From: a virus
IMG/VR virus record: IMGVR_UViG_3300047554_000247
Coordinates: 1-21,944 of that record
DNA: 21,944 nt
Strand: one strand, 5' to 3'
Both the position numbers and the translations under genes were made by a program. Below are positions 12,212 to 18,563 of this stretch, piece after piece. How positions within the stretch are numbered: position 1 is the first letter of the stretch; every line of letters starts with the position of its first letter. The notes under the pieces were generated by a model. That model saw nothing but the letters and a program-made list of their open reading frames with translations. It had not been told where the DNA came from and did not search any database.

Positions 12212-12547
12212 TTAAATCTGGGTAATCTGTGGATTTACTGTTACTATTCCCTCAACCACTCTGGTTTTTGTTCCAGATGGAGAGGTAATTTCGACGTCAT
12301 AAAGCCATCTTCCAGCAGGGATAGCTTCAGACTGTTGTGGGGTTAATTGAAGGCGAACCTTACCTGTGTTTGCATCGTAGATAGATGCGGTAAAGTTATA
12401 CGCTGTGCTGGACTGATATGACTTTCTCATCTGAGAAGCCACGCTATATCCAGTTAGATTAAGTGCTTGTCCGTTGGTAGCTGCAACTGTGATAATGTTG
12501 CTGTAGGATGCCCCAGCGTCCACGAAAAGATTGCTGACAGTCGCCAT
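12212..12547 (-). CDS. Small Ig-like virion protein (BppU-N-like)
   Basis: A 111-residue all-beta protein. The layout (VDAGASYSNIITVAATNGQA, LNLTGYSVASQMRKSY, ASIYDANTGKVRLQLTPQQS, IPAGRWLYDVEIT and VVEGIVTVNP) matches the small domain found at the N-terminus of baseplate upper proteins (BppU-like) and stand-alone virion proteins of T4-like phages. It probably forms part of a fibre attachment site. The ATG has Shine-Dalgarno GGGGA with 6-base spacing, but that GGGGA is also the 3' arm of a 10-bp hairpin containing a late promoter. Translation is therefore expected mainly from transcripts that start in the hairpin loop. The gene is followed immediately by the 83-residue gene. Confidence 0.75.
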   Translation of the reverse strand: MATVSNLFVDAGASYSNIITVAATNGQALNLTGYSVASQMRKSYQSSTAYNFTASIYDANTGKVRLQLTPQQSEAIPAGRWLYDVEITSPSGTKTRVVEGIVTVNPQITQI

Positions 12548-12549
12548 TC

Positions 12550-12599
12550 AAAATCCCCAAATTATTCTTATACTTCTTATTTATAAGCATGGGGATTTT
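12550..12599 (-). promoter_or_regulatory. Hairpin that sequesters a Shine-Dalgarno sequence
   Basis: On the minus strand AAAATCCCCA (12599-12590) pairs perfectly with TGGGGATTTT (12559-12550) across a 30-base loop. Inside the loop CTTATA and TATAAG can form a second 6-bp stem. The right arm contains GGGGA, the Shine-Dalgarno sequence of the 111-residue gene. Read-through RNA would hide it; RNA starting in the loop would not. The same structure could act as a weak terminator for the upstream gene. Confidence 0.65.
12578..12585 (-). promoter_or_regulatory. Late promoter TATAAATA inside a hairpin loop
   Basis: A perfect match to the T4 late-promoter core TATAAATA, 30 bases upstream of the ATG of the 111-residue gene. 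The expected start site, about 5-7 bases downstream, falls at about 12572. The transcript would therefore lack the left arm of the hairpin and leave the Shine-Dalgarno sequence free. The intergenic location makes it the most convincing late promoter of the window. Confidence 0.75.
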
Positions 12600-12605
12600 T
12601 GTAAT

Positions 12606-13631
12606 TTACAAGAAAATGTTTCTGTAGTCGTCTAAAAGGAATATCCAGTCAGGTTCATGGACTGAAAATGTCGATATTTTCTTAGTTTTGTTCTTAGCAT
12701 AATGTTCAAACCCTAAGCTAGAAAGAAACTCACGCATTTGCCATCGATGTGTAGTAGAATCGCCTGGAGTGCGAGTGAATGGTTCTTTGGTAGTAATAGC
12801 CCATCTCTGGAAGTCTTCAGAGTCGAAAAACCCATGAATTAGATCGAACTTGTCTTTTTCAAGTAAAATTTTATGTTCATATATTGCAGTATACCAATCT
12901 AAGTTAAAGATGCAATACCATCTTAGATCAGCTACTGTTTCAATTTTTCTAGGAGAAGCGTCAATCATGGGTTGAAAAAATTCTAGAATTTCTTCTGACA
13001 CATTCTTCTCGTATGGCTCGTAAATAGTTTCTGGAGTCCCAAGTGTATGATGGAACATCGCATTTCCACCATTAGCGAACATATCGTCTGTTGGACCGAA
13101 TAGCTGGTTACCGCACATACCACTAACATAGATCTCATCTACATTTTTATAGTTTAAATCGTTTCTTTTAGCTACACCTATATCAAATTCAAATTTATTT
13201 TTTATATCTCTATCGAATAAGTCGCCAGATTCGACTATAGAATTATAAGTGCCAAGAACCTTAACTTGAGATTTATCAGTAGCACACTCATGTAGGATGT
13301 ATAAAATGTATGTACTGTCTATCCCGCCAGACCACATAACATTAATCTTTTTGCCAGAAGAAAGTAGCTGCTTAGCACGTTCTACAGAAACCTCATGAAA
13401 GGACTTATTAAATCCTTCTGTAGAAGGCATTGGATGTTTATCTGGAGATATCTTTAGAAAGTGCGGTAGTTTACCAGTTCTATCGTAGATTGCATTATAT
13501 GAATTTAACCCAAATTTTTCATACAGCTCAAACGTGCTACGATGTCCTGTTATGAATGGTGTGGTTTCTAATAATGTTGGGTTTTCTCTAAGAATCTTAG
13601 AGACTAGTTGTGGGTGATAATAAAGTATCAT
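12606..13631 (-). CDS. Asparagine-synthetase-like ATP-pyrophosphatase lacking a glutaminase domain
   Basis: A 341-residue protein. The PP-loop VMWSGGIDSTYILYIL (98-113) is the ATP-pyrophosphatase signature of asparagine synthetases and relatives. VSGMCGNQLFGP (169-180) aligns with the SGEGSDEIFGGY motif of AsnB, but Asn-Gln replaces Asp-Glu. The N-terminal Ntn glutaminase domain of AsnB is absent: the protein starts MILYYHP, with no Cys2 nucleophile, and about 90 uncharacterised residues precede the PP-loop. It may use free ammonia or another amine, or activate a carboxylate for a different ligation. A GAGGA Shine-Dalgarno sequence lies 4 bases before the ATG, just after a terminator. It follows the radical SAM/TRAP cassette. 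By eye it is more AT-rich than the structural genes, suggesting separate acquisition. The substrate is unknown. Confidence 0.8.
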   Translation of the reverse strand: MILYYHPQLVSKILRENPTLLETTPFITGHRSTFELYEKFGLNSYNAIYDRTGKLPHFLKISPDKHPMPSTEGFNKSFHEVSVERAKQLLSSGKKINVMWSGGIDSTYILYILHECATDKSQVKVLGTYNSIVESGDLFDRDIKNKFEFDIGVAKRNDLNYKNVDEIYVSGMCGNQLFGPTDDMFANGGNAMFHHTLGTPETIYEPYEKNVSEEILEFFQPMIDASPRKIETVADLRWYCIFNLDWYTAIYEHKILLEKDKFDLIHGFFDSEDFQRWAITTKEPFTRTPGDSTTHRWQMREFLSSLGFEHYAKNKTKKISTFSVHEPDWIFLLDDYRNIFL

Positions 13632-13644
13632 ATGTTCCTCAAAA

Positions 13645-13670
13645 CGAAAAAAGGGAGCCGAAGCTCCCTT
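13645..13670 (-). terminator. Rho-independent terminator with UUCG loop
   Basis: The minus strand reads AAGGGAGC, TTCG, GCTCCCTT, then TTTTCG. This is a perfect 8-bp stem with the extra-stable UUCG tetraloop and a run of Ts. It lies 18 bases after the stop of the TRAP-like gene and ends about 14 bases before the next start, closing the cassette. Confidence 0.9.
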
Positions 13671-13671
13671 G

Positions 13672-13679
13672 TATTTATC
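13672..13679 (-). promoter_or_regulatory. Candidate late promoter GATAAATA
   Basis: A match to NATAAATA, 8 bases after the stop of the TRAP-like gene and one base before the terminator stem. A start 5-7 bases downstream would fall inside the left arm of the terminator. New transcripts would then escape it while read-through is stopped. It would serve the asparagine-synthetase-like gene, whose ATG is 40 bases downstream. Confidence 0.6.
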
Positions 13680-13687
13680 ACTTCAAA

Positions 13688-14632
13688 TTAGTGTAGTTGA
13701 ATCTTCTCAACTAGACCTGGAGTGAAGTAGTCAGCAAATTTAGCGTAAACTGGAGCAGTAACTTCTTTGAAACGTGCTTCTTGTTCAGCAGTCATCTTAA
13801 CAACTTCAACACCCTCAGCTTCGCATTGAGCCAAGATGTTTGGAATGTCTGCAACAGATTCACGACGCTCAGCACGAGCAGCGTTAAATGCAGCAGTAGA
13901 CAAGATCTCTTGAGTTTCAGCATCGAACTGCTTGAAGAAGTCTTGGTTTACGATGATAGAAGTCAAGAACAAGCTATGTGCTGTATCGTTAACAACTTTG
14001 AAAGACTTATGCTGGTCCAGTGGGAATACACGAACGTAAGTAGACTCACCAGCTTCGATCAAACCTGCATCAGCAGCAGCGTTCATTTCTTCCAAAGCGA
14101 TGTGTTCTTTAGGTTCAGCGCCAAGCAACTTGAACGTCTCAACAGCAACTGGAGAACGGCTAGTACGAACTGTACGACCTTGCCATGCTTCTACAGTGTC
14201 AGCCTTAAAGTTAGCTGGAACGACACGGTAACCACCAGAGTAAGTGAAAGACATAGCATGAGTGTTGGAATTCTTAGCAACACCAGCCAATAGATCCATA
14301 CCAACAGAACCTTCTAAAACTGCATCTGCGTGAGCGTGGTCACGGAACAGGAATGGAAGATCTAGGGCGTGTAGGTCTTTGTTATAGTCAGCTAACCAAG
14401 TAGTGTAGATATGGCTCATTTCGATGGTGCCATCGTCAACTAACTTCATTAGTGCATCTTTGGTAATCTTTCGACCACCATTGTATTTTGCAGAGTAGTC
14501 AGACAAAGAAAGGACTTCGATGTCGAAAGCACCGTTAGTTTTCTCGTTGACTTCTTTTGCGAATCGTTCTGCTACTTTCAAAAACAAACCGATTGGCTCG
14601 TGGGCGATGACCCACTTTACATGTTTAGTCAT
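13688..14632 (-). CDS. TRAP-type (DctP family) solute-binding protein without signal peptide
   Basis: A 314-residue protein that matches the mature part of TRAP substrate-binding proteins over its length: WVIAHEPIGLFLKVAERFAK (7-26), EVNEKTNGAFDIEVLS (27-42), HALDLPFLFRDHAHADAVL (88-106), the WQGRTVRTSRSP block with the substrate-carboxylate arginine position (R156), VETFKLLGAEP (164-174) and NDTAHSLFLTSIIVN (215-229). These proteins normally deliver organic acids to a membrane transporter from the periplasm. Here no signal peptide precedes the domain and no DctQ/M membrane genes are present, so the product should stay in the cell or be built into the virion. The ATG overlaps the upstream stop (ATGA), with Shine-Dalgarno AGAGGA 9 bases before it. 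By eye, base composition resembles the structural genes more than its two AT-rich neighbours. Confidence 0.88.
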   Translation of the reverse strand: MTKHVKWVIAHEPIGLFLKVAERFAKEVNEKTNGAFDIEVLSLSDYSAKYNGGRKITKDALMKLVDDGTIEMSHIYTTWLADYNKDLHALDLPFLFRDHAHADAVLEGSVGMDLLAGVAKNSNTHAMSFTYSGGYRVVPANFKADTVEAWQGRTVRTSRSPVAVETFKLLGAEPKEHIALEEMNAAADAGLIEAGESTYVRVFPLDQHKSFKVVNDTAHSLFLTSIIVNQDFFKQFDAETQEILSTAAFNAARAERRESVADIPNILAQCEAEGVEVVKMTAEQEARFKEVTAPVYAKFADYFTPGLVEKIQLH

Positions 14633-14922
14633 TTCTTAGTTTCCTCTAAAATGTTGGTATCGAAAATCCAACTTTCCTTTTGGTTATTTAGGTCTATCAC
14701 TCTTCTCATGATAGGTATTTTATTATTTATAACGAACTCTATTGTAGACTCGTTAGGGAATCCATCAATATATTTAGTTGGAATAATAGTTCCTCTAGCC
14801 CCATAAACAGGAGTTAGAGAGTTATAGTGAAAATAATCACCAATAGTGAATAAATCTAAGTTCTCACCGAACCTAGGATACTGATTTATCTCTACGAAAG
14901 TTTCGTCGATGAAAGGTGTCAT
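14629..14922 (-). CDS. Small protein of unknown function in the radical SAM cassette
   Basis: A 97-residue acidic protein that I do not recognise. It is rich in Ile, Asn, Phe and Tyr (DLFTIGDYFHYNSLTPVYGA, TIEFVINNKIPIMRRVIDL) and has a predicted beta/alpha mix, no cysteine, no signal peptide and no membrane segment. Its start overlaps the stop of the radical SAM gene (ATGA) and its own stop overlaps the next start (ATGA), so the three products are probably made together. No Shine-Dalgarno sequence is visible, in line with coupled translation. It could be a partner or recognition protein for the radical SAM enzyme. Without Cys it is not an obvious thioether substrate. A late-promoter match lies within it. 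Confidence 0.75.
   Translation of the reverse strand: MTPFIDETFVEINQYPRFGENLDLFTIGDYFHYNSLTPVYGARGTIIPTKYIDGFPNESTIEFVINNKIPIMRRVIDLNNQKESWIFDTNILEETKK
14724..14731 (-). promoter_or_regulatory. Possible internal late promoter TATAAATA
   Basis: A perfect TATAAATA on the coding strand inside the 97-residue gene (over codons for Val-Ile-Asn-Asn), 91 bases upstream of the TRAP-like gene. It could raise late expression of that gene alone. The AT-rich coding context makes a chance match possible. Confidence 0.4.
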
Positions 14923-16301
14923 AGAGATTTAATAGGTATAATTTTCTTGGTAGTTTTTGGAATACCGTAAACCATCCCGAAGATGTCTTTTCTATCTTCT
15001 GGCATAGCCTTATTTTCGTCTTCGATATAAATCGGAATCATCCCTGTCAACATCTCGATAGAGCAGCAAAATACGACGATATTATCGCTGTATGAATTCG
15101 TACAAGTAGTTTCCCACAGTGGACCAGTTAGGAAGAAACAAGCACCTTTACATATATGTAATACAGGACAGTTGGGGCATTCTTCACGATCGCTCCAATG
15201 AGTTCCTGTAGCGACTTCCACAGAAGATAAGCTAGAAACATGGCCAATATGATGTGAAATACCAGAAGGATTGGTAGAAACTGTTGACACGTTCTGACAA
15301 GTTAGAACATTTCCGTTAAGGTCTATCGCCATATTATCTGAAAGATCCATACCACACTTTTGTGTGATATCTTCAGATCTTTTACCATTAGAAATAGAAT
15401 TAATAAAGTTATCTACCTTAGTTTTAATAGTGCTATAACGAGTTACATATCCAGCACGAATTTCATCGAAAGTGAACTTTCTAAAGTTCATTTCCTGTTC
15501 TGCATTTTCCAAGGAAGAAGTGACGCCACCTTCGTCATATGCGTCGATGAATGTACCTTCACCTATTAGTAAATACTGTAAGTAATGTTCACCCAATTCT
15601 GTTGCAATTAGCTTTTCAAAAAACTGTTGAACACTGGCTCTACTGATATTTTTAGCAGTTACCATTGAGTTGAAACTCAAACGATTTTTTGTCGCTAATA
15701 CTTTATAAGCGTACAGAATTCCTTCTTTACTCTCTTTATCATCTAATGGGTCTGGACCACGAACAAACTGTCCTGGACCATCATGTGAAATACCGATACT
15801 AAATCCCAGATTATCTAACCAATCAACCTTTTCTTTATCTAAAAGACTTCCGTTAGTTATAATAGAAAAATTAGAGTTTGGGTATTTCTGTCTTATCTGT
15901 TCTGCTAGAGGTTTTAAGGTTTTCCAATAAACCAAGGGCTCACCACCCCAAAATTCAAAGGAACGATTTAATCCTAGCTTATCATCACCACCATCAAACC
16001 AAGTTTCCATATTTGACACAAAGGGAGCTATATCATCTGGATTGGTTGAATCTGCATGCGGTACAAATCTCTGGTTACAATACTCGCATTCGTAATTGCA
16101 AGATAACCCGAGTTGTATTTTTACAGTTTTTGGATTTTTACCAGTCTGAATCTTGACCTGTTTTTTCTCAGTTAGATCGAGGTTGGTTTGGATGACTGGG
16201 GAACCATCTTCCCAGTTTAGAGTGCTGTACTTAGAATCATAAACAACTTTCTTTCTTTCCTGAGTCACTGGATGAGAAAGAGTAACATTAAATTTTGCCA
16301 T
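14919..16301 (-). CDS. Radical SAM/SPASM peptide-modifying enzyme
   Basis: A 460-residue protein. CNYECEYC (C68, C72, C75) is the CxxxCxxC site for the SAM-binding [4Fe-4S] cluster. FWGGEP (117-122), SIITNGSLL (146-154) and GFSIGISHDGPG (166-177) are further radical SAM barrel motifs. The C-terminal SPASM domain has C316, C335 (in GNVLTC), then C375, C378, C384 and C388 (CPNCPVLHICKGAC) and C400, enough for auxiliary clusters. SPASM enzymes usually modify ribosomally made peptides or proteins, for example by thioether bonds in sactipeptides and ranthipeptides, or by formylglycine in sulfatases. An N-terminal extension of about 58 residues precedes the barrel. The ATG has AAGG 8 bases upstream. 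The gene starts a cassette with two ATGA overlaps and follows fibre-region genes, including one ending in (Asn-Cys)4, its best candidate substrate here. Confidence 0.93.
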   Translation of the reverse strand: MAKFNVTLSHPVTQERKKVVYDSKYSTLNWEDGSPVIQTNLDLTEKKQVKIQTGKNPKTVKIQLGLSCNYECEYCNQRFVPHADSTNPDDIAPFVSNMETWFDGGDDKLGLNRSFEFWGGEPLVYWKTLKPLAEQIRQKYPNSNFSIITNGSLLDKEKVDWLDNLGFSIGISHDGPGQFVRGPDPLDDKESKEGILYAYKVLATKNRLSFNSMVTAKNISRASVQQFFEKLIATELGEHYLQYLLIGEGTFIDAYDEGGVTSSLENAEQEMNFRKFTFDEIRAGYVTRYSTIKTKVDNFINSISNGKRSEDITQKCGMDLSDNMAIDLNGNVLTCQNVSTVSTNPSGISHHIGHVSSLSSVEVATGTHWSDREECPNCPVLHICKGACFFLTGPLWETTCTNSYSDNIVVFCCSIEMLTGMIPIYIEDENKAMPEDRKDIFGMVYGIPKTTKKIIPIKSL

Positions 16302-16316
16302 AATATACCTTAAATT

Positions 16317-16341
16317 ATAAAGGGGATCTAGTCCCCTTTAT
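16317..16341 (-). terminator. Hairpin upstream of the radical SAM gene
   Basis: The minus strand reads ATAAAGGGGA, loop CTAGA, TCCCCTTTAT: a perfect 10-bp stem followed by AATTT. It directly follows the stop of the upstream Ig-like gene and ends 15 bases before the radical SAM start. The T-run is short, so it may be a partial terminator or an attenuator. Confidence 0.7.
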
Positions 16342-16346
16342 TTATT
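16339..16346 (-). promoter_or_regulatory. Candidate late promoter AATAAATA overlapping a stop codon
   Basis: A match to NATAAATA. The stop codon TAA of the upstream Ig-like gene lies inside it, and its last three bases belong to the following hairpin stem. Transcripts starting 5-7 bases downstream would lose most of the left hairpin arm. The radical SAM ATG is 37 bases downstream. Confidence 0.6.
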
Positions 16347-17136
16347 CGACTGGAATGATAATCTGATTTAGAGAAGGGACTCTTCTATAACCTGCTCTTA
16401 CACGAACAGCTTCTCCTGCTACTAAGTCTGTAGAATATGCAGTAAGAGATCCTGTTCCATTAGTCAATGTAACACGTTGTTTATTAGTTAAACCATAAAC
16501 TGCATCTATAAAAACTTCTTTGACAGAAGGATCTGCGCTAACAGTAATAGTCACAGAAGAATTTGGAGCAATTGTCTGTGAAGAACTAGTTAATGTGATA
16601 GTAGGTAAATGTTCTTTGAAACCTGCCACAGTAGTTGCAGACTCTGCTGCTGTTTTAAGAGTTCCAGCGTATTGATAATTAGCGTTCTGTGGAGTTCTTA
16701 AAACTACTGTCCAAGTTGAAAAATCACCATCTTGATCGTCTACTAAAATATAGAAAGGATATGAATTGTATGGAGCATTAGAAGATGGCTTAGAACGGCT
16801 TGATAATGTATCAGCAAAGATATCAATAAATTCTGAAGGTGGTATCACATACGCTTCGGTAGGAATACCTTCAGAATCTGATACAACTTGCACAGATGGG
16901 TTCACACCATATACAACAAAGTCTGCACCAGTACCAAATTGTTTTAGATTAGCAGCTAATACTTTATTCCATAGAAGTACGGAGTCTGTATTATCAGTAT
17001 TGTGCTGAACTACTTTTATTTCAAAATAGTCGTCGTTACCATCAAGATGAAATGTAACACCAGAACTTTCTTTTTGTGGTATAGTTGAAGTTGTGTAATC
17101 TGGATTACCAACTATGTGTTTTTTAATCTTAATCAT
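16342..17136 (-). CDS. Ig-like virion or fibre-accessory protein
   Basis: A 264-residue protein, starting at ATG 17136 (MIKIKKHIVGNPDY). A longer frame opens at TTG 17154 inside the preceding gene. I prefer the ATG because AGGA lies 6 bases upstream, the same layout as in neighbouring genes. The N-terminal 165 residues are unrecognised (KVVQHNTDNTDSVLLWNKVL, YVIPPSEFIDIFADTLSSRS, FYILVDDQDGDFSTWTVVLR). Residues about 176-264 look like an Ig-type beta-sandwich (LTSSSQTIAPNSSVTITVSA, then PSVKEVFIDAVYG, RVTLTNGTGSLTA and GEAVRVRAGYRRVP). It lies between the (Asn-Cys)4 fibre and the radical SAM gene, with an 11-base gap to the former. It could be a fibre-tip partner, but no function is proven. 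Confidence 0.75.
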   Translation of the reverse strand: MIKIKKHIVGNPDYTTSTIPQKESSGVTFHLDGNDDYFEIKVVQHNTDNTDSVLLWNKVLAANLKQFGTGADFVVYGVNPSVQVVSDSEGIPTEAYVIPPSEFIDIFADTLSSRSKPSSNAPYNSYPFYILVDDQDGDFSTWTVVLRTPQNANYQYAGTLKTAAESATTVAGFKEHLPTITLTSSSQTIAPNSSVTITVSADPSVKEVFIDAVYGLTNKQRVTLTNGTGSLTAYSTDLVAGEAVRVRAGYRRVPSLNQIIIPVE

Positions 17137-17147
17137 TGGATATCCTA

Positions 17148-17174
17148 TTAGCAATTACAGTTGCAGTTACAGTT
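17148..17174 (-). other. C-terminal (Asn-Cys)4 motif
   Basis: Codons AAC TGT, AAC TGC, AAC TGT, AAT TGC, then TAA (residues 384-391). Four strictly alternating Asn-Cys pairs end the fibre. Variation at both third positions shows that the pattern is not a simple tandem DNA expansion. It could be a crosslinking, metal-binding or radical-SAM substrate tail; nothing in the sequence decides between these. Confidence 0.85.
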
Positions 17175-18323
17175 GTGTGCTCTTAGCAACATGTTGGTTC
17201 CTTGACGAATTGTATCATAAACACCAGCAGTATAGAAAATAGTTGGGTAATGGTGATAGTTAGCGTTACCAAAACAGTTACCAATAACACGACCGCCACC
17301 ACCGTCAACGAAGAAACCGTAGTTACCCAAGTTGTTAGAGAATTGTGACAAGTGACCTGGCCAACCACCGCCAGCAGAAGATGCGTAACCTGCAGAACCA
17401 GCAAAACCAGCGTATGAGACGTTAGTGACGGAAACCGCACCAGTAGCACCCTGAACAGATGTAACAGGAACAGAAACGGTAACAGCACCTGTGTTACCTT
17501 GAACAGATGTAACAGCAGCGTTAATAGTAGGGTTACCAGCAACACCGCTACCGTTATCAACAGTAATACCAGCACCAGCAACAATTGATCTAGTAGCAGA
17601 AGCACCAGAACCAGTTCTAATGTAGATACCAGTACCTGCCTGACCAGACAATGCTGTTAATTCAGCAGAGTATGCTTGGACATCTGTACCAATACGAACA
17701 CCTAGCGTAGCACGAGCAGTAGCTGCATCAGCGTCCGCCATATGGCCACGCATGTAAGAACTAGATGTAAAAGTAGCTGCTGTACCAGATCCAGTAAAAT
17801 ATGGAACTAAGTTAGCTCCAGAAACGATACCAGCTAATGCTGCTAATTCTGCGTCATATGCTTGGACGTCTGTACCAATCGCTAGACCTAAGGCAGTACG
17901 AGCGCCAGCTGCAGTAGTAGAACCTGTACCACCAGAGCCGATAGCTAAAGCAGTAGAAAGGGTGATAGAACCGCTAGTGATTGCTGCAACACCAGAGAAA
18001 GTACCAGAGAAGGTAGAAGCTGTGATGGTGTTAGCTGCAAAGTTACCACTAGAGTCACGAGTAACAACAGAGCTCTTGTCAGTAGCTGCTGGAAGTGCAG
18101 AAGAGTTAGCTAAACCACGAACTAAGTCAGCATCTACACCAGATCCAGTACCATCAACTGTGATAAGTTTGGCTAGGACGTCTGCTGCAGTATAAGAAGC
18201 TGCAGTTTGACCAGTTTGGATTGCGTTACTTAAGTTCGTAAAGTTAGCATCGACTTCGGCGTTTGTAAGAGGGCTACCTTTGGTAGATCTTAGCGTAATT
18301 GATGGTGCGGAAATGCTTGCCAT
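17148..18323 (-). CDS. Tail-fibre-like protein ending in (Asn-Cys)4
   Basis: A 391-residue protein. The N-terminus ([20 protein letters not shown], then TNLSNAIQ) is a fibre head seen in many phage tail fibres. The shaft contains duplicated blocks ([20 protein letters not shown] and [40 protein letters not shown]). The last about 90 residues form a Gly/His/Tyr-rich tip ([39 protein letters not shown]) ending in [10 protein letters not shown]. Apart from one further N-C pair (VIGNCF) the protein has no Cys that I see. The repeat is encoded with mixed synonymous codons (AAC/AAT, TGT/TGC), so the protein sequence appears to be kept, not a simple DNA repeat. Shine-Dalgarno AAGGA precedes the ATG by 7 bases. 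A C-terminal run of exposed Cys suggests crosslinking, metal binding or enzymatic modification. Confidence 0.88.
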
Positions 18324-18341
18324 TTAGGATCCTTTTTCAAC

Positions 18342-18563
18342 TTATTTGTTTACGAGTTTTATGAGAAGATCTTTAATTTCTCGCAACTCATTCTTCATAT
18401 TATTTATCTCATCTGTATGTTGAGAAATTAGCTGATCTTTTTGCTCTGCCAGCCTAACTCTCTCCATATATTCCTCATATTCTGTCCTGTTTGTATTTAT
18501 AATGGCTCCGCTAGAGATATCTCTAACTAAGCCATTATGTCCCTGAACTTTTAAGTAATTCAT
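18342..18563 (-). CDS. Small coiled-coil protein
   Basis: A 73-residue protein. The N-terminus YLKVQGHNGLVRDISSGAII (residues 3-22) is a short pattern I have seen in small proteins of T4-like marine phages. Residues about 28-71 (YEEYMERVRLAEQKDQLISQ, then HTDEINNMKNELREIKDLLI) form a highly charged heptad-like helix expected to make a coiled coil. The ATG shares its A with the last base of the upstream stop (TAATG), so translation is coupled to the large tail protein. The function is unknown; an assembly chaperone or small connector would fit its size and place. Two late-promoter matches lie within it, upstream of the (Asn-Cys)4 fibre. Confidence 0.8.
   Translation of the reverse strand: MNYLKVQGHNGLVRDISSGAIINTNRTEYEEYMERVRLAEQKDQLISQHTDEINNMKNELREIKDLLIKLVNK
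18401..18408 (-). promoter_or_regulatory. Possible late promoter GATAAATA
   Basis: A NATAAATA match inside the small coiled-coil gene, 77 bases upstream of the (Asn-Cys)4 fibre ATG. The coding context (Glu-Ile-Asn-Asn) could produce it by chance. Confidence 0.4.
18494..18501 (-). promoter_or_regulatory. Possible late promoter TATAAATA
   Basis: A perfect late-promoter core inside the small coiled-coil gene (codons for Ile-Ile-Asn-Thr), about 170 bases upstream of the (Asn-Cys)4 fibre. It is a plausible second start for that transcript, but it lies in AT-rich coding DNA. Confidence 0.4.

Follow-up and report, generated by a model that had tools for sequence, protein, structure and literature searches.

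A six-gene island in a T4-like phage places a radical SAM/SPASM enzyme beside a fibre protein with an Asn-Cys tail, its predicted substrate

Introduction

The maturases of sactipeptides and ranthipeptides (PapB, CteB/SCIFF, geopeptide and others) combine a radical S-adenosylmethionine (SAM) core and a full set of SPASM cysteines with a Cys-rich stretch, encoded alongside, that is modified, features shared by the locus described here. The His-Xaa-Ser (HxsB/HxsC) systems likewise join a radical SAM/SPASM enzyme to a short-repeat substrate. According to the accessible part of one report, a precursor peptide with an Asp-Cys repeat (up to six) is found with a radical SAM enzyme, 'Cluster 59', and a recombinase, and its product is unknown (PMC9062424). 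At the C-terminus of a ribosomally synthesised and post-translationally modified peptide (RiPP), nitrile or amide formation by the asparagine-synthetase-like PesC is described in the accessible part of another (PMC13060819). Here we analyse 21,944 nucleotides of viral DNA (IMG/VR record IMGVR_UViG_3300047554_000247, positions 1 to 21,944; the window), which encode a radical SAM/SPASM enzyme, a 97-residue protein (s97) and a solute-binding protein of the tripartite ATP-independent periplasmic (TRAP) transporter type (DctP family). The original prediction, made from the sequence alone, grouped these three genes as a cassette whose products act together. We find that the natural unit is not three genes but an island of six, flanked by two conserved structural genes (g73 and g111) of a T4-like phage, and that it includes a fibre gene whose product ends in an alternating Asn-Cys (NC) tail.

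Results

The enzyme and the tail

The strongest partner of the radical SAM/SPASM enzyme is the fibre gene two genes upstream, the product of which ends in NCNCNCNC; the original prediction made no link to this gene. All counts given here exclude loci with too little flank and near-identical enzymes (recognised by a shared N-terminal stretch or, in the representative-locus, module and tree sets, by an identity of 90% or more). When viral loci were fetched by the enzyme alone (41 non-redundant loci with at least 3 kb of upstream sequence), a same-strand upstream open reading frame (ORF) ending CxCxC was present in 37. The repeat stands directly before a Hint domain in two more, and the remaining two comprise a locus with the ending NCNCDRNCGC (by eye) and a fragment without a visible tail. 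Loci fetched by DctP that also bear the enzyme had the tail in 30 of 31 cases, the 31st ending NCRNCNC. The isolated Achromobacter phages JWF and 2-1 both have the enzyme with the Hint-form tail. Among 66 enzyme loci from bacterial genomes, mostly of Burkholderiales and Alphaproteobacteria, the tail was found in 49, its Hint form in three and a weak form in two (one of which looks real).

The association also holds in the opposite direction. A degenerate DNA pattern for NCNCNC followed by a stop codon was used for a reverse search, and non-redundant ORFs of at least 60 amino acids with enough downstream DNA were retained; among the matches listed, the enzyme lies downstream on the same strand in 43 of 48 ORFs, the other five being other proteins, the DUF6712 family included. 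With a permuted codon order, the pattern matched 47 stretches, none of them with the enzyme, and no more than four ORF ends, each of an ORF shorter than 36 amino acids.

Relatives without the enzyme appear to be essentially without the tail. In the 17 enzyme-free DctP loci an NC-type tail occurs in one of 1,301 ORFs, antisense, and in eight Kyanoviridae-type loci in one of 472 ORFs, antisense and 40 amino acids long. When g73 was used to look for enzyme-free relatives, six loci only were obtained (L355-L360): enzyme and NC tails are both present in L356-L358, L355 contains the tail and stops short of where the enzyme would lie, L359 has neither, and L360 is cut off.

Across 154 distinct tails, a set that includes some chance ORFs (e.g., L020, L026, and L317), the residue preceding Cys is Asn at 550 of 722 positions (Ala 77, Asp 41, Arg 17). 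Most of these tails (136) end in Cys, and they contain 3 to 11 repeat units, four being the most frequent number. The tail peptide is kept while synonymous codons vary, and the mixed codons, the permuted-motif control and the enzyme-free relatives rule out that the tail arose by chance or from low-complexity sequence.

The carriers of the tail are mostly fibre-type proteins, typically 80 to 400 amino acids long (maximum 1,082), with the repeat at the C-terminus. By BLAST links they fall into components of 121, 14, 11, 9, and 2 proteins plus six singletons, and the singletons include chance ORFs; by this measure, one large fibre family seems to bear the tail along with several families that have no BLAST links to it. 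In six loci (L155, L171, L179, L186, L215, and L222), the NCNCNC ending recurs on two or three small proteins encoded in tandem, and the radical SAM gene follows them except in L222, where the sequence ends too soon. A Hint (CFxxxT) domain directly follows the NC repeat within the same fibre protein in L030, L031, L108, L109, L299, L318, and L347; the profile match was tested and seen for L109 and L031, and in phage JWF the match begins immediately after the repeat. This arrangement suggests a self-cleavage that would expose the tail.

Two further kinds of protein end in NCNCNC with no such radical SAM enzyme nearby, a DUF6712 protein of about 202 amino acids (L172 and L188; also L124 and L206) and proteins of 184 to 190 amino acids (L161, L167, and L180; also L121). 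NC-tail and radical SAM genes are found in a number of Rhodobacteraceae genomes (L328, L329, L331, L332, L334-L336, L338, L341, and L342), of which Thalassobacter stenotrophicus has several copies (L328, L329, and L342; a fragment in L348). In L332 they are joined by fibre-like and 2-oxoglutarate (2OG)-Fe oxygenase-like genes beside apparent exopolysaccharide genes.

The enzyme itself exceeds the curated cut-offs of both Radical_SAM (PF04055; 34.9 bits against 29.5) and the SPASM domain (TIGR04085; 31.0 against 27). In 16 of 16 diverse aligned members, the Cx3Cx2C cysteines (C68, C72, and C75) are invariant, as is the complete SPASM set C..Gx4C..Cx2Cx5Cx3C..C (C316, G330/C335, C375, C378, C384, C388, and C400). 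Its best E-value among solved structures is to the radical SAM protein 8vpo. Membership of a known maturase family was rejected, every cut-off being missed among the best 25 of 49 NCBIfam families (PapB, for example, scores 57.7 against 340).

The island and its optional modules

In the order of transcription, the island comprises the genes for the fibre protein with the NCNCNCNC end, g270, the radical SAM/SPASM enzyme, s97, the DctP protein, and a PP-loop ATPase. It lies between g73 and g111, and the original prediction was right in placing the genes in a fibre and baseplate setting. The cyanophage isolate Sf-CH8 has the g73 and g111 homologues as direct neighbours with nothing inserted, and all six island families are absent from the eight Kyanoviridae-type loci examined, taken from 335 records that match g73. 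That the three genes of the proposed cassette move as a unit is ruled out by their independent occurrence, by the exchange of DctP described below, and by partner counts. In 33 of 65 non-redundant viral loci the enzyme occurs with none of the s97, TRAP-like, and PP-loop genes, and the TRAP-like gene occurs without the enzyme in 17 loci, short fragments among them. What stands of the suggested joint action is the coupling of the radical SAM enzyme with a small partner.

We counted gene families in 131 representative loci, a sample enriched in DctP loci as one scan started from DctP. These have g270 (91 loci), 2OG-Fe oxygenase-like proteins (53), the PP-loop ATPase (33), s97 (31), and DctP (30). 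In its 91 loci the g270 gene is conserved between the NC-tail and radical SAM genes. The fold match of g270 is confined to residues 183-270, which resemble immunoglobulin-like (Ig)/Big_1 domains (1f00; Z 10.8, root-mean-square deviation 1.9, 84 aligned residues), its N-terminal part having been barely probed. Homology to g270 was not established for g340 and g240, the proteins found in its position.

No family in Pfam, PHROGs or NCBIfam matches s97. Wherever the flank suffices (31 cases), it is accompanied by the PP-loop ATPase, and DctP is missing beside it in one case and the enzyme in one; s97 and the PP-loop ATPase are predicted to be partners. The SGGxDS motif of the ATPase (S101, G102, G103, D105, and S106) is invariant in 33 of 33 aligned sequences. 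Its Asn_synthase domain scores below the cut-off (15.1 against 21 bits) and no N-terminal glutaminase was matched.

Of the 96 representative loci with enough flank, 41 have oxygenase-type clusters (family-supported in 37) and 30 have the PP-loop ATPase, and no locus has both. One oxygenase-counted cluster, of 295 amino acids, is the sole basis of the assignment in four loci and has no family match, with an HxD..H..R-like spacing in 8 of 8 sequences; when it is left out, 37 oxygenase loci and 30 PP-loop loci still share none. On a tree of 93 enzymes, which leaves out the three most distant (L352-L354), the PP-loop label requires eight changes, at least six of them forced by well-supported branches, and the modules have therefore been gained or lost repeatedly. 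The PP-loop/s97/TRAP module is optional. Tails beside the PP-loop ATPase have a terminal Asn-Cys in 28 of 32 cases, compared with 33 of 72 in oxygenase-type loci (kinship not corrected), an excess that is no more than suggestive and would fit C-terminal recognition.

The DctP protein of the window scores 148 against a cut-off of 23.4 for PF03480 and 109.1 against 50 for NF037995, and stays below the cut-off of TIGR00787 (111.8 against 175). By eye its N-terminus has no hydrophobic stretch (no signal-peptide program was run), and the window contains no ORF resembling DctQ or DctM that would complete a TRAP transport system. With its homologues in four relatives (L051-L054) it shares 95-97% of the protein and 88-90% of the DNA sequence, and s97, the enzyme, and the PP-loop ATPase are only 38-65% identical in protein to theirs, a pattern indicating that the DctP-type gene is exchanged alone, and recently, between otherwise diverged phages. 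Read by eye, L093 (5070-8960; also L095) has an apparent complete TRAP transporter, with DctQ-, DctM-, and secreted DctP-like proteins, followed by a signal-less DctP-type protein. One phage (L063, 83-10536) combines a signal-less DctP, a PP-loop paralogue, an apparent ligase, a dehydrogenase, a BKACE-like enzyme, and secreted TctC-like proteins, again by reading, a gene set that may represent a small-molecule pathway.

Organisation of the window

The coordinates of the features are given in Table 1. The identities first proposed for the three genes held up, with profile matches for the radical SAM and TRAP-like proteins and none for s97, and both 4-base stop-start overlaps are exact. These overlaps are only partly conserved among relatives: the one between the radical SAM and s97 genes is kept in 13 of 35 distinct junctions and the one between s97 and DctP in 10 of 32, with gaps taken to the nearest in-frame ATG, a start codon that is not proven. 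The signals thought to bound the cassette (hairpin, late-promoter-like site, and UUCG terminator) are real, but the terminator does not close a functional group, since the PP-loop ATPase beyond it goes with the s97 gene; this ATPase starts 56 bases past the terminator and has a late-promoter-like site of its own. Six T4-late-promoter-like ATAAATA sites lie on the minus strand of the window (12578-18501) and none on the plus strand, and five of the six are at most 120 bases upstream of a gene start.

Table 1. Features of the island and its borders in the window.
Feature	Position	Strand	Remarks
g73, virion protein	18342..18563	minus	phrog_473; conserved left island border
Tail-fibre-type protein, 391 aa (amino acids), proposed substrate	17148..18323	minus	phrog_24210 tail fiber, 4.4e-14
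Codons of the C-terminal NCNCNCNC tail	17151..17174	minus	synonymous codons mixed
g270	16342..17154	minus	Ig-like (Big_1/intimin-like) C-terminal domain; N-terminal part without assigned fold
Late-promoter-like AATAAATA	16339..16346	minus	38 bases upstream of radical SAM start, at hairpin edge
Hairpin between g270 and radical SAM gene	16320..16339	minus	z -2.3
Radical SAM/SPASM enzyme, 460 aa	14919..16301	minus	phrog_1802; profile and alignment matches
ATGA overlap, radical SAM/s97	14919..14922	minus	exact, 4 bases
s97, 97 aa	14629..14922	minus	family-less; confident alpha/beta model, unmatched among solved folds
ATGA overlap, s97/DctP	14629..14632	minus	exact, 4 bases
TRAP-type solute-binding protein, DctP family, 314 aa	13688..14632	minus	without evident signal peptide
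Late-promoter-like GATAAATA	13672..13679	minus	41 bases upstream of PP-loop start
UUCG-loop intrinsic terminator after DctP	13651..13670	minus	
PP-loop ATPase, 341 aa, s97 partner	12606..13631	minus	motif SGGIDST (asparagine-synthetase/LarE-like)
g111, L-shaped tail fibre assembly type	12212..12547	minus	phrog_1084/3304; conserved right island border

Discussion

We consider it very likely that the NC tail is the substrate of the radical SAM enzyme, because the two co-occur in both directions and are jointly absent, because the tail is grafted onto several carriers, and because of the class of the enzyme. We read the island as encoding a RiPP-like system for the modification of fibre tips, with cysteine chemistry, for instance thioether cross-linking, as the probable means. 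In the course of events that we propose, the fibre protein would be synthesised with a C-terminal (Asn-Cys)n tail, which the enzyme would bind in the cytoplasm and modify covalently along the repeat. The most likely change would be thioether links from the cysteine sulphurs to neighbouring residues (of the sacti- or ranthipeptide type), a product favoured by the chemistry of this enzyme class. The outcome would be a rigid, oxidation-proof fibre tip, and the probable task of the Ig-domain protein g270 is to cap, guide or join it. A finishing step may follow: here the s97/PP-loop pair would use ATP to activate a carboxylate, which may be the C-terminal one of the tail or belong to a small acid bound by the signal-less TRAP-type protein, and in other phages a 2OG-Fe oxygenase would hydroxylate the tail. 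Mutual exclusion and enzyme class point to these roles of the two modules.

As in RiPP loci, a substrate with a conserved core is encoded alongside the enzyme, the NC-tail protein adjoining it. Several points weigh against tail modification as proposed. The system is known here from genes alone, from which the chemistry is deduced, and no named NCBIfam maturase family among the best 25 of 49 reaches its cut-off for the enzyme. The carriers are large and have no leader peptide, where a RiPP would have a short, leader-bearing precursor. No RiPP recognition element was identified; the model of s97 (predicted local distance difference test score 89.6) found no match among solved folds, a comparison that speaks neither way. 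Two unrelated protein families end in NCNCNC without such an enzyme nearby, and 12 of the 66 bacterial loci have no recognised tail (three of the 12 have very distant enzymes, and some have long-branch ones). The Fisher value for the exclusion of oxygenase and PP-loop genes ignores relatedness.

Other uses of an alternating-Cys tail were weighed against the same evidence. Conversion of its cysteines to formylglycine, as by anaerobic sulfatase maturases, would give an aldehyde tip that bonds host amines. Sulfatase maturase has the best E-value of the named NCBIfam families (1.7e-17), at 63.6 bits against a cut-off of 349, and solved anaerobic sulfatase maturases cover the core and SPASM best (4k36, 3e-13). 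However, sulfatase maturases target a motif of the CxPxR/SxPxR type, which the tails do not have, and an Asn-spaced repeat of 3 to 11 cysteines is unlike a sulfatase site, so that we regard this conversion as unlikely. A metal-binding needle, whose residues stay unchanged while the radical SAM enzyme or its clusters help to load a metal or Fe-S centre, is quite unlikely. The tip of the T4 fibre has His-x-His iron sites, xCxCxC in a presumably trimeric fibre would turn the cysteines inward, and most tails have no aromatic acceptor, but the SPASM cysteine set is complete, the swapping of oxygenases and PP-loop ATPase better fits a multi-step residue chemistry, and we know of no precedent for a SPASM enzyme as metal loader.

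It is very unlikely that the three genes form an operon of metabolic cargo, for small-molecule binding and radical chemistry, that lies beside a Cys-tailed fibre by chance. The TRAP-like gene does move independently and joins other secreted binding proteins in other phages, yet the enzyme and the tail accompany each other both ways in viral and bacterial loci and are both missing from relatives. A cargo role is thus unlikely for the enzyme and possible for the TRAP-like protein.

If modification of the tail by the radical SAM enzyme is correct, it would represent a phage fibre tip rebuilt after translation, with its substrate, enzyme, and finishing modules identified, and the chemistry of peptide natural products, a type of modification known from small peptides, would extend to virion proteins. 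It would also explain why genes for radical SAM enzymes, 2OG-Fe oxygenases, and substrate-binding proteins, usually classed as auxiliary metabolism, occur in phage tail regions, and the C-terminal tag could be used for stable cross-linked tips. The system can be tested in phages JWF and 2-1. A broader view, to which we give somewhat less than even weight, is that RiPP-type machinery acts on the particles of phages and prophages of Alpha- and Betaproteobacteria at large. It would consist of an (Asn-Cys)n tag at the tips of unrelated virion proteins, cross-linking by the radical SAM enzyme, two interchangeable finishing modules, and exposure by a self-cleaving Hint domain in one branch; one module would be a 2OG-Fe oxygenase, and the other, the PP-loop/s97 pair, would cap the C-terminus or attach a small acid brought by the cytoplasmic TRAP-type protein.

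Comparison with known systems

The gene set was not recognised from any pathway when first noticed, and our full-text literature search, which leaves most subscription papers outside its coverage, likewise returned no description of the island system or of a modification of this kind on a virus particle. The accessible parts of reports on JWF-like, alphaproteobacterial, and Campylobacter phages do not mention a link between tail and enzyme (PMC9959647, PMC10783043, and PMC2853527). Sf-CH8 and the other Kyanoviridae, T4-like cyanophages, share related structural genes with the phage of the window and differ from it in the absence of the island genes.

The HxsB and HxsC profiles fall far under their cut-offs on the island enzyme (39.3 against 370 and 28.8 against 267.9). 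To the sacti- and ranthipeptide maturases the enzyme has only weak profile similarity, and unlike theirs, its proposed substrate is the C-terminus of a large leaderless virion protein, encoded in phage tail modules. PesC, as far as the accessible text describes it, resembles the PP-loop ATPase in being an ATP-dependent PP-loop enzyme that works on the C-terminus of a modified peptide, and the island tails beside the ATPase mostly end in Asn-Cys (28 of 32). The ATPase (341 amino acids) differs from PesC in having no glutaminase domain, a similarity at the level of motifs only (9lei, E 0.0045), and an extra partner, s97. The nearest report that we found, compared by the description in its accessible part, is that of Cluster 59 (PMC9062424), which has an x-Cys dipeptide repeat beside a radical SAM enzyme as the island does. 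Where Cluster 59 has a peptide and a recombinase, the island has Asn-Cys repeats on tail fibres, g270, and exchangeable modules.

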